47,327 bases of DNA from Clostridiales bacterium (GTDB lineage: Bacteria; Bacillota; Clostridia; Caldicoprobacterales; UBA3941). The position numbers and the translations under genes were made by a program. The stretch spans positions 1 to 47,327 of the forward strand of contig JAAYSJ010000168.1 in NCBI GenBank assembly GCA_012518395.1, given 5' to 3'. Positions 3,586 to 34,861 of this stretch are shown in pieces. The notes beneath the pieces are model-generated. The model was given only the letters and a program-made list of their open reading frames with translations, had not been told where the DNA came from and searched no databases. How positions within the stretch are numbered: position 1 is the first letter of the stretch; each line of letters starts with the position of its first letter.

Positions 3586-3994
3586 CTGTCTCTACATTGT
3601 ATTGCCCGGGATTTTGCCACATTCTAACTCTTCTGTTTCTGCCCATTCCACAATGACCGTTTCTGCCCATTCCATGATAACCATTTCTGCCCACTCCGTT
3701 GTTATCATTTCTACCTATGCCATAGCGACCATTTCCGCCCATTATACCGGGATCGAAACCATTTTCCTCATGGAACTTCTCCATATAATCAAAGTGCTCT
3801 TTCCACCTATCGGCCTCTTCTTGGGTGATCTTTCCTTCATCCAGAGCCTGTTCAACCCTTTCCCTACGGGCTGAAAACATGGATCTGAAAAAACTAATGG
3901 GGTCATCACCGTCTTCAGCCGCTGCCAAAATCGGGGGTATTGCTAAAAGACTTATGATGGCAAGAACTGCCGCAAACAATATGAACTTCTTCAT
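3569..3994 (-). CDS. Secreted DUF2680-like protein with Gly/Arg/Asn-rich repeat tail
   Basis: Signal peptide MKKFILFAAVLAIISLLAIPPILAAA, EQALDEGKITQEEADRWKEH helix typical of DUF2680/YckD-like proteins, then GxGRN repeats. Start moved to ATG at 3994 (GAGGAG RBS). Confidence 0.65.
   Translation of the reverse strand: MKKFILFAAVLAIISLLAIPPILAAAEDGDDPISFFRSMFSARRERVEQALDEGKITQEEADRWKEHFDYMEKFHEENGFDPGIMGGNGRYGIGRNDNNGVGRNGYHGMGRNGHCGMGRNRRVRMWQNPGQYNVETEKEAG
3636..3750 (-). repeat. 24-bp in-frame tandem repeat, about 4.5 degenerate units
   Basis: TTTCTGCCCATTCC-like units begin at 3636, 3660, 3684, 3708 and 3732 (exact 24-bp period), encoding xGxGRNxx on the minus strand. Confidence 0.85.
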
Positions 3995-8944: not shown

Positions 8945-9138
8945 TCAATATATTATATGCTTGCTCCCCTATCATACCATAATATATCCGTTCTATCGAC
9001 AGCATTGAGATGGTTATAATGTCATAAATAGACACTTTCTATCTAAAAATTATATATGTTGAAAAAAGATTTATCATTCTAAAGCTAGCATAGCCTACTG
9101 TATTCAACAAAAGTAATGTATTTTATGCAAAATATTAA

Positions 9139-10188
9139 TCAAATAAAGGAAATCTGAACTGGCTCACCAGGATAAACCAGATTGGAGACCTGAAGTCCAA
9201 TAAGCCTTATTGGCTTTAACAAAGGAACTCGATCTTTCAAGATCTCCGATGATCTTTCATAGATCAACAGGGACGAATCAATGGGATTTGGTAGAGTTAC
9301 GCTCCTTGTTATATATTTAAAGTCGTTATACCTGATTTTAAGAGTAATAGTGCGGCATTTAAGAGCCTGCTTGGTCATACGTCTGCCAATAGCAAGGGAA
9401 AATTCTCTAAGACAATTTCGTAATACGCCTAAATCATCTGTATCCGATTCCAAAGTCGTCTCTTCGCTTATGCTCTTTGTTTCCTGTTCTGTTTGAACGG
9501 GGCTGTAATCTATTCCCCGACATAATTGTATAAGCTCATGGGCTCTCCGCCCCCAGTTGCTCAAGAGAAATTCACGATCATACTCTAAAAGATCTTTGAC
9601 TGTAAAAATACCTATATTATTTAAATCCCTTTCCGTCTTCTCCCCAACCCCCCATACTTTACGAATAGACATTCTGGGCAGAATATCCCTGGCTTTCTCT
9701 GGTGTTATTACTGTAAAACCGTCGGGCTTTCTCATATCTGAGGCCATCTTTGCTATAAACTTATTATAGGACACACCTACTGACGAAGTTAGACCTGTTC
9801 TTAACAGGATATCCTTTTTTATATTCTTTGCGGTCTCTATAGGGTTCCCATCTGATATCTCAAGAAAGGCTTCGTCTATTGATACAGGTTCTATTATAGG
9901 CGTATATTCTCTAAAGATAGAATGAATTTGTCTGGATACTTTCTTGTATTTTTCCATATTCACAGGCAAAAATACAATATTAGGGCATAGTCTGGCAGCC
10001 TGACTACATGGCATGGCCGAATGGATGCCGAATTTCCTTGCCTCATAGGAAGCAGCGCTTACAACACCCCTGCCTTTAGGATCACCGCCTACCACTACCG
10101 GCTTATTCCTATATTGAGGTCGATCCCTTTGCTCTACAGAGGCGTAAAAAGCATCCATGTCGACATGAATTACAACAAGCTCTGTCAT
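9139..10188 (-). CDS. dinB: DNA polymerase IV (Y family)
   Basis: VVIHVDMDAFYASVEQRDRPQYRNKPVVVGG, SIDEAFLEIS; start moved to ATG at 10188 downstream of a G-rich RBS. Confidence 0.95.
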   Translation of the reverse strand: MTELVVIHVDMDAFYASVEQRDRPQYRNKPVVVGGDPKGRGVVSAASYEARKFGIHSAMPCSQAARLCPNIVFLPVNMEKYKKVSRQIHSIFREYTPIIEPVSIDEAFLEISDGNPIETAKNIKKDILLRTGLTSSVGVSYNKFIAKMASDMRKPDGFTVITPEKARDILPRMSIRKVWGVGEKTERDLNNIGIFTVKDLLEYDREFLLSNWGRRAHELIQLCRGIDYSPVQTEQETKSISEETTLESDTDDLGVLRNCLREFSLAIGRRMTKQALKCRTITLKIRYNDFKYITRSVTLPNPIDSSLLIYERSSEILKDRVPLLKPIRLIGLQVSNLVYPGEPVQISFI

Positions 10189-10703: not shown

Positions 10704-10804
10704 CAAATGTTTTTTGCATTCTACCGATCCCAATAAAAAATAATGATTACACTGTAAAGCCCCAAATCAATCCAGGGTTAAGCAGCATAATCATTATTAT
10801 AATG
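10704..10804 (+). repeat. Dispersed palindromic repeat, copy C (diverged)
   Basis: Shares the 19-mer AAGCAGCATAATCATTATT with copy B (10780-10798) and a related left end AAATGTTTTTTGCATT; internal inverted repeat AATAATGATTA (10739) / TAATCATTATT (10788). Confidence 0.65.
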
Positions 10805-26807: not shown

Positions 26808-29186
26808 CTATGGTTGTAGTTGCCCTTCCTGGGGAAGCAAGCTAAGGCGCCTTTCGTCTTTGAGCCTGTAATATTCCTCAATAATCCTGCGAGCCACAGG
26901 GGCAGCATTACCGGAAGTCCTGCCGTTAGGGATAACGACCACCACAGCTATTTCAGATTCCTCGTAAGGGGTAACTGCCACAAACCAAGCATTATTTTTT
27001 GTCTCGTCTTTAGGTACTGTTTGGGCAGTACCAGTTTTGCCCGCTACAGTTATATTAGGATCCAGGTCTTGAAAATATGGGGCTGCTGTCCCGCCACCAT
27101 CATTCTCGCCCTTAGTAGGGTGGGGGTCGTTTACTACCCGCCACATGCCTTCTAAGGTAGCGTCTAAATATTCCTGTTTTATATCTAAATGCCTTAAGAC
27201 CTTTGGTTCTGTCTCCTTTATTACCCTGCCTTCAGAATCCACTACCTTTTTTATCAAATGGGTTTCCAGGACCTTCCCCCCATTTGCGATTGCAGCTACA
27301 TACCTTGCTACTGATAATGGACTAAGGTCTGTATACCCCTGCCCTATACCAGCCTGTATGGTATCGGAGGGTCTCCACCTCTTATAAAAGGCCAATACAT
27401 CCCTTCTGATTTCGTCAGCAGCCTGCAGGGCTCTATTCTCGTACCCCATGGATTCCAGCAGCTCTGCAATCTTACGGGTGTCCTCAAGACCGGCCTCCCT
27501 GGATCTGTCCTCGGATAAAGGAAAGTCCACTATGGTCTCTACCTGCTCCATTTGTTCCTCTGTAAGCTGGGGACCAAAATAACCGTATTCATTTTTTTTC
27601 ATTATCCTTGTAACAAGGGTTTTCATATTCGTCCTTTGGGATTTTATCTTTATTTCCTCATCAGGAATAATGTTTTTATCCCTTTCAGGTGATAGGATTT
27701 CTATACCTGTGCCACCGTCCAGGCCAAATAGTTTTGCCCATTTACTTATAGCCTCCACACCTAGGCGATCAGCCACTTCAAAGAAAAAATAGTTACAGGA
27801 ATGTTTCAGAGCGTCTATATAGTTTTCCCAGCCATGACCAGATTTTCTGGAACACTGAGGCCCATTTTTACTATCGTACTTTGTAAACTTTACGGCATCA
27901 TATATCCTTGTGTTTAAATCAATAACCCCTTCTTCCAGTCCCGCAATGCCAATGAGCATCTTGAAAACAGAGCCGGGCATATACCTGCCCTGAAAGGCCA
28001 GGGCAAACTGGTTTCCATCTTTCCCCGGACTATTGGGATCAAAGGAAGGGTAACTTACCAGGGACAGTATCTCACCTGTATTTACATCCAATATGACAGC
28101 GGCACCTTCTTCGGCCAGGGGGGCTATATTATCCTCATTATATGGGGGAATGCCTTTGCTCATTTTTTCTATCTCTTCTTTTAAAATATTGCTTACAGAC
28201 CTTTGTAGCTGGCTATCTATAGTTAGGATCACTTCATCGCCGTTTTGTGGTGGGTCTTCTCCTAAAACCCTGATAACCTTACCCAGAGAATCCTTCTCGG
28301 CTACGAGCCTGCCCTGTCTTTCTGCCTTATTGCCTGTCAGCCATTCTTCTGCATATGCTTCAATGCCTGTTTTGCCTACCTTATCGTCAGATATATCATA
28401 GCCCTGTTTTCGGTATTCCTCTGTTTCTTCTTTGCCTATGCTGCCAAGGTACCCTAGAATCTGCGAAAAATCGTCTCCCATAGGATAATAGCGACCACTC
28501 CCTACCAAGGTCTGTACCCCGGGGATTTCAGGAGCAAAGGTCTCTATTTGAACAACGGTATCCGGGCTGATCCCTTCGGCTACAAGAATAGGCTCGTATT
28601 GGGTAAATCTTTTCATATAGATATTAAGGCGTATTGATATAATGGCTAAAGCTATCTCATCATCAATTTCGGCATCTATCTCGTAACGTTCTTCCCTGAG
28701 ATAGTCAAGCATTTCCTCCGCATCTAATTCGTCTTTTACACCGATATCCTTACACCAGGCCTTGTATCTTTTATCCTGAACCTCCTCTTCTTCATCCCTC
28801 CAGGTATAATAGGGCAAGCCTGTTTTTGGATCATATCTGATAGGTAGAAGGTTTACTAAGGTATCCTGATCACCGTTTTTGTATATGATCTCCAGCATGC
28901 GAAGAAGAATTTCGTTGACTTCCTCATGGTCAGAGGGGATTTGTTGTCTGTTCATCTGCAGCTTATAGATCTGGTTGTTATTGGTCATTGCAATACCATA
29001 CCTATCCGTTATGCTCCCCCTGGTTCCTTTAAGCTTAAGTTCTACCCTCTGTTTGGATAAAGAGGCAGCATAAAGCTCGTCCCCTTTTTCCACTGTCAAA
29101 TAGGCTAATTGGCCAGCTAGGACTGCCAGACAAATTATACAGATTATTCCTAATTGAATATTCCTTTCTTTTAATGCTTTAAGCAT
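26808..29186 (-). CDS. mrdA: Penicillin-binding protein 2 (class B PBP)
   Basis: GSVFKMLIGIAGLEEG, KHSCNYFFFEVADRLG, AGKTGTAQT; flanked by mreD and minC. Confidence 0.93.
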   Translation of the reverse strand: MLKALKERNIQLGIICIICLAVLAGQLAYLTVEKGDELYAASLSKQRVELKLKGTRGSITDRYGIAMTNNNQIYKLQMNRQQIPSDHEEVNEILLRMLEIIYKNGDQDTLVNLLPIRYDPKTGLPYYTWRDEEEEVQDKRYKAWCKDIGVKDELDAEEMLDYLREERYEIDAEIDDEIALAIISIRLNIYMKRFTQYEPILVAEGISPDTVVQIETFAPEIPGVQTLVGSGRYYPMGDDFSQILGYLGSIGKEETEEYRKQGYDISDDKVGKTGIEAYAEEWLTGNKAERQGRLVAEKDSLGKVIRVLGEDPPQNGDEVILTIDSQLQRSVSNILKEEIEKMSKGIPPYNEDNIAPLAEEGAAVILDVNTGEILSLVSYPSFDPNSPGKDGNQFALAFQGRYMPGSVFKMLIGIAGLEEGVIDLNTRIYDAVKFTKYDSKNGPQCSRKSGHGWENYIDALKHSCNYFFFEVADRLGVEAISKWAKLFGLDGGTGIEILSPERDKNIIPDEEIKIKSQRTNMKTLVTRIMKKNEYGYFGPQLTEEQMEQVETIVDFPLSEDRSREAGLEDTRKIAELLESMGYENRALQAADEIRRDVLAFYKRWRPSDTIQAGIGQGYTDLSPLSVARYVAAIANGGKVLETHLIKKVVDSEGRVIKETEPKVLRHLDIKQEYLDATLEGMWRVVNDPHPTKGENDGGGTAAPYFQDLDPNITVAGKTGTAQTVPKDETKNNAWFVAVTPYEESEIAVVVVIPNGRTSGNAAPVARRIIEEYYRLKDERRLSLLPQEGQLQP

Positions 29187-29204
29187 GGTTTACCCCCGAC
29201 CTAT

Positions 29205-29234
29205 ATGTTTTGCATTAAATAACGATTATGCTGC
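29205..29234 (-). repeat. Dispersed palindromic repeat, copy A (half element)
   Basis: Minus strand GCAGCATAATCGTTATTTAATGCAAAACAT matches 34832-34861 in 29 of 30 positions. Confidence 0.8.
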
Positions 29235-34603: not shown

Positions 34604-34760
34604 AATACCTCCATAATCTAAACTATATGCTTTGCGACAAATAACAATTATAGTGAAAATAAAAAGTCTCTGTCCCGTTACCCTTTGCTATTATACTAGA
34701 TATTTACCTAAAATCAAACATTAAATCCTAAAGACTCGCCCTATTTATGAATCCAGGAAA

Positions 34761-34861
34761 ATGTTTTGCATTATAGTGTCCAAATGTAAAATGACAATTA
34801 TGCAGCTGATAAGAATTCTATTTTCTTGAAAGCAGCATAATCATTATTTAATGCAAAACAT
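34761..34861 (+). repeat. Dispersed palindromic repeat, copy B (full-length, MITE/REP-like)
   Basis: 13-bp perfect terminal inverted repeats ATGTTTTGCATTA (34761-34773) / TAATGCAAAACAT (34849-34861) and an inner near-perfect pair ATTATGCAGCT / AGCAGCATAAT. Confidence 0.75.

Follow-up and report, generated by a model that had tools for sequence, protein, structure and literature searches.

Is the 101-bp palindrome that lies between nfeD and a Na/Pi cotransporter gene in a Clostridiales bacterium of the UBA3941 lineage a complete mobile element, a piece of a larger one, or a structure retained by the host to regulate its neighbors? We addressed this question in the window (the whole stretch analyzed, 47,327 nt of contig JAAYSJ010000168.1) and in the host genome (G000), a 2.16-Mb draft in 195 contigs for which genome-wide counts derive from sequence searches and extracted stretches. 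The palindrome, hereafter copy B, is very probably a decayed copy, truncated on the left, of a mobile element that is non-autonomous, MITE-like, and built of hairpin modules.

Structure of copy B and its family

An earlier note described the sequence at 34761-34861 as a full-length, noncoding palindromic element with terminal inverted repeats. The palindrome itself is plainly visible: its 13-bp arms are perfect, it encloses an inner inverted pair (34797-34807 and 34831-34841), and its 101 nt, which encode nothing, fold at -28.9 kcal/mol (z = -4.7), a value equaled by 0 of 200 shuffles. What did not survive comparison with other copies was the claim of completeness. Searching the host genome with the palindrome recovered this hairpin in about 14 near-complete copies along with many partial copies, and copies or fragments number more than 40. 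The homology of most copies extends some 95 nt further left, into a second, larger hairpin, and on the right continues to ACATATAG, the true end of full copies. Copy B matches the 204-nt consensus at positions 83-198 only (34746-34861, 93% identity) and is therefore a truncated copy, representing the 3' half of the element, while its supposedly terminal 13-bp repeats are the stem of the second hairpin. In this alignment, the break falls within the 3' arm of the 5' hairpin; copy B has lost the 5' hairpin and the right terminus, and at its right tip, ACATGCAT replaces ACATATAG.

Intact forms are either about 150 bp (short) or about 200 bp (long, with one extra hairpin). First among their modules comes a 5' hairpin, whose outer stem is TATATGTYGC.../...GCRACATAT and whose inner stem is CAAAATCAG/CTGATTTTG; a 12-nt linker follows, and then a 3' hairpin that terminates in ACATATAG and in some forms holds a third hairpin. 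Short-form copies (L015-L018 and L020-L023) have consensus position ~130 joined straight to ~184, omitting an internal module of about 53 nt. The consensus recovered full copies (up to 96% identity), short forms, and solo halves from the host genome. Full forms measure 148 to 204 nt, are AT-rich (GC about 0.22 to 0.34) and noncoding, and thus have the size and composition of MITEs as defined in PMC10969869.

Within the window, the earlier grouping of copies A, B, and C as a repeat family is upheld by repetition across the genome, with the amendment that A is just a solo right end and C a 25-nt fragment (Table 1). A possible, low-confidence relic upstream of the Na/Pi gene scored 33, whereas the highest score was 28 among 646 other tiles of the window and 32 among 1,000 shuffles; the spacing to the Na/Pi gene in relatives requires no insertion there. 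Elsewhere in the window, a 24-nt repeat forms a tandem pair inside an open reading frame (3635-3682). In the host assembly, the end of contig C141 (L018) and the start of C163 (L022) overlap and carry nearly the same element-bearing locus, which suggests that strains are mixed or that the assembly broke at the repeat.

Table 1. Features of the repeat family and of the nfeD-Na/Pi intergenic region in the window
Feature	Position	Strand	Remarks
Copy B, 3' part of long-form element	34746..34861	+	93% to 204-nt consensus; absent from orthologous gap in G003
Remnant of 5' hairpin in copy B (end of 3' arm and linker)	34746-34760	+	Rest of 5' hairpin missing
Outer stem of 3' hairpin, 5' arm ATGTTTTGCATTA	34761..34773	+	Inverted match to 34849-34861 is perfect; pairs of the stem covary between genomes
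Outer stem of 3' hairpin, 3' arm TAATGCAAAACAT	34849..34861	+	Tip ATATAG after arm in other copies, altered here
Inner hairpin ATTATGCAGCT / AGCAGCATAAT	34797..34841	+	With neighbors, the ~53-nt module separating long and short forms
Copy A, solo right end (34 nt, 100%)	29201..29234	-	Directly upstream of RBS of PBP-type transpeptidase gene (26808-29186)
Copy C, 25-nt fragment of 3' hairpin	10780..10804	+	Found in G000 search with palindrome
Degenerate 5' hairpin (77%)	9053..9142	+	Consensus match; missing from the earlier note's list
Possible further right-end relic, low confidence	34623..34651	-	24/29 identical; just upstream of Na/Pi RBS
Candidate promoter inside element, TTGTCA-16-TATAAT (11/12)	34770..34797	-	Prediction; faces Na/Pi cotransporter gene
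Likely native Na/Pi promoter, TTGATT-16-TATAAT	34690..34717	-	Outside element; matching sequence upstream of orthologue in G003 and G001

Distribution and insertion polymorphism

Of 291 genomes sampled from the class, 13, spread over five families, were matched significantly by a covariance model (R1) for which 20 copies from two genomes were used. Searches with a degenerate pattern of the 5' hairpin's inner stem located the family in UBA3941, in AS23ysBPME_90, and at two loci of Clostridiales bacterium GWB2_37_7. The latter genome has 12 copies that match a 151-nt query at 96 to 99% identity and stand beside older ones; in G260, five copies match the query at 92 to 97%, and the near-identical copies of both genomes sit at unrelated sites. 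GWB2_37_7 also harbors a second subfamily with other stem sequences and the same two-hairpin plan; at its loci (L120, L115, L126, and L129), some copies carry two additional hairpins in the middle, flanked by the 5' and 3' ones. No match to the element turned up in plasmids, phages, or viral contigs; a single viral match to the loop pattern was discarded, as the element ends are absent from it. Rfam returned no match at or above its gathering threshold in the window, and in eight loci with intact copies it returned only chance hits at E <= 5.

Mobility of the family is shown by empty orthologous sites in a congener: flank searches found that three insertions in G157 (L138, L147, and L146) correspond in G108 to gaps shorter by 151, 150, and 148 nt. 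Three further candidates (L094, L102, and L103) were rejected as clean empty sites, the G157 orthologues being too diverged or bearing a possible right-end remnant. By a hand reading, the joined flanks of the L100 copy in GWB2_37_7 spell a lipoprotein signal peptide (...KKLIILLLISILVIGMTGC...), which this copy apparently interrupts.

The copy B locus itself is occupied in the window and empty in G003, a relative of the same family. There nfeD and the Na/Pi gene retain their order, about 150 nt separate them versus 342 nt in the window, and both an apparent nfeD terminator and the Na/Pi promoter are recognizable; G003 belongs to a different genus, so this comparison establishes absence at the site and not the time of insertion. 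G001 keeps the Na/Pi promoter, and its contig stops short of the insertion point. Occupation of the same position in all relatives, the outcome that the earlier note had set against mobility, was not observed, and its proposal of a mobile repeat family is supported by the many copies, the recent amplification in GWB2_37_7, and the empty sites. The family is multicopy, resides at differing sites in each genome, has recently moved, and does not occur at the orthologous locus of a relative; the vacant sites in G108 and G003 constitute the insertion polymorphism expected of MITEs.

Termini and candidate parents

The termini are constant (ATATGT...ACATAT), and this is the sole sequence common to both true ends, the long palindromes being internal to each half. 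Flanks are mostly TA on both sides, almost always so on the left. Of 14 copies of the GA type (starting GATATGT), 11 have identical 4-nt flanks on the left and on the right; in copies starting TATATGT the flanking 4 nt do not match (left TATA versus right TAGN or TAAN).

In these draft genomes, neither the surroundings of single ends nor the Y1, DDE_1, and DDE_3 transposase loci examined yielded an autonomous element with these ends. Multicopy transposons are often lost in the assembly of drafts. Single-ended matches in GWB2_37_7 and G260 were considered as parents and proved to be ordinary genes or longer structured variants. The DDE transposase at L261 was likewise dismissed: its 16/16 left-end match is a solo end beside an insertion sequence with its own ends (1008-1052 and 2373-2417). 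That insertion sequence (L261:1008-2417, GWB2_37_7) encodes a DDE_1 transposase and has 45-nt inverted ends (73% identity) and a probable 10-bp target duplication, GAGTAATACC.

The association with a REP-associated tyrosine transposase (RAYT) that the earlier note had raised was not borne out, since the sole RAYT-like gene seen, a Y1 transposase gene on contig C19 of the host genome (L087:1432-2223), has no repeat copy in its locus and is not flanked by one. A short open reading frame preceding this gene suggests that it has GGGACGGTT-type repeats of its own, unrelated to the hairpin family. On contig C156 (L088:396-2460), an IS605-type tnpB and a tnpA fragment lie about 1 kb from a degenerate repeat copy and adjoin a small two-gene cassette resembling a toxin-antitoxin pair.

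Stem variation and gene context

In 52 full copies, 95% of cells in 35 stem positions pair, and 17 of the 35 stem pairs have changed on both sides, values that 0 of 500 shuffles reached. The inner stem of the 5' hairpin also covaries. RNA-type covariation tolerates G-U pairs, and here G-U cells (39) were not commoner than A-C cells (48), which suggests that source copies are constrained as palindromes or as single-stranded DNA and that the element is not an RNA regulator. We infer that palindromes are perfect in active source copies and decay neutrally once inserted, and we go no further because the alignment was fitted to the model, the copies share ancestry, and template-switch correction of quasi-palindromes could be a source of compensated changes.

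The following orientation and distance counts are approximate, because genes were called with a simple open-reading-frame script. Between codirectional genes of the host genome, 25 copies run along the direction of the genes and 8 against it; in 18 of 31 cases a start codon lies no more than 60 nt from the 3' end of the element, whereas for the 5' end the figure is 3 of 15. When all genomes are combined, 63 copies run with and 27 against the genes. The bias is present in G000 and G157 and fails as a general rule in G061 (5 versus 4) and G260 (8 versus 7). Copy B itself is oriented against its neighboring genes.

The idea that the element begins at transcription start sites was abandoned: the left flank is often TATAAT-like, yet forward and reverse counts are equal (18 each), and promoters are not enriched (32 versus 25 +/- 4 in shuffles). 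Inside the element, a TTGTCA-16-TATAAT box on the antisense strand of the long form reaches 11/12 in 9 of 13 long-form copies versus about 1% of shuffles; this candidate promoter is a prediction for the long form of the host genome only. Lying between the apparent nfeD terminator and the Na/Pi promoter, copy B probably does nothing essential, and, to judge from this box, it may add a weak extra promoter towards the Na/Pi gene.

Alternative explanations and relation to known repeats

A structured RNA leader, that is, a cis-regulatory 5' untranslated element that has spread to many genes and acts when transcribed, would account for the compensatory stem changes, the same-strand bias and the proximity of 3' ends to start codons in the host genome, and the placement of copies directly upstream of the ribosome-binding sites of genes that are dnaK-like and feoB-like by sequence. 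We consider this very unlikely, given that selection on RNA should have produced an excess of G-U over A-C cells, that the orientation bias is absent from two genomes, that promoters just upstream of the element are not in excess, that Rfam holds no match, and that copy B is truncated and lies outside the inferred transcripts of both neighbors. DNA-symmetric covariation and intergenic location would equally suit an operator, protein-binding site, or chromosome-organizing palindrome kept by the host, which is extremely improbable in light of the empty sites between congeners, the recent bursts of near-identical copies, their frequent truncation or degeneration, and the unrelatedness of the neighboring genes.

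Mobility could also take a narrower form, in which the element is a REP/RAYT member or an IS200/IS605-derived hairpin element moved as single-stranded DNA by a Y1 transposase. The two subterminal hairpins, their covariation at the DNA level, the lack of a clean target-site duplication in most copies, and the Y1 transposases in the host genome are in its favor; it is nonetheless unlikely, as element ends are absent from the loci of the RAYT-like gene and of an IS200-type gene (L086), and the IS605-type pair near a degenerate copy shares no ends with it. Rather unlikely, if somewhat less so, is a transposon family recognized by hairpin shape and not by end sequence, in which compensatory changes rewrite the stems from one genome to another (TTTTGCATTA, TTTCGCACTA, and TTTCGTGCTA) while the architecture and the loop motif AATGTAAAATG are kept, and which an as yet unnamed transposase would move as single-stranded DNA.

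The best reading, then, is that the family is new, modular, and non-autonomous and resembles MITEs. Movement of the element at TA-containing, AT-rich sites would depend on a transposase acting in trans; active source copies would have to retain both hairpins, so that their stems would change by compensatory mutation, and copies, once inserted, would be left to neutral decay. Points against this reading are that no autonomous parent or transposase with these ends emerged at the loci examined, that the target-site duplication is not clean, and that copies in the host genome show a same-strand bias and start-codon proximity, so that some of them could be used by the host. In agreement with the earlier note, the family could not be matched to a named REP, BIME, or MITE family; it is undescribed in the sense of being unmatched in Rfam and in a limited literature search, in which BOX, MITE, and stem-loop families were compared by description.

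By description, the closest parallels are modular or palindromic repeats of other bacteria. BOX elements of Streptococcus are likewise interspersed, MITE-like repeats with variable internal modules and predicted hairpins (PMC3049150), whereas here the modules are hairpins whose stems vary from genome to genome, and tandem arrays of the boxB kind were not seen. Correia elements, a MITE of Neisseria, resemble the family in being short noncoding repeats, often upstream of genes, that carry promoters (PMC10969869). Unlike them, the present family has two separate internal palindromes instead of one terminal-repeat pair and a promoter that is only predicted and limited to the long form of one genome, and the Correia host belongs to another phylum. 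Correia elements occur in internal-deletion size classes, and size variants are common to both families. The bcr1 and other Firmicutes stem-loop families, including Clop-1 and Clot-1 of Clostridium (PMC2267715), can be likened by description as intergenic repeats of about 70 to 170 bp in tens of copies. REP and BIME sequences with RAYTs are also extragenic palindromes, but the present family is larger and is unlinked to the RAYT-like gene present.

This study describes widespread, recently active small mobile repeats in poorly known Clostridia, together with a model that finds them. Confusion of transposition palindromes with RNA regulators is a common cause of misannotation, and stem turnover without G-U bias provides a simple sequence test to tell the two apart.
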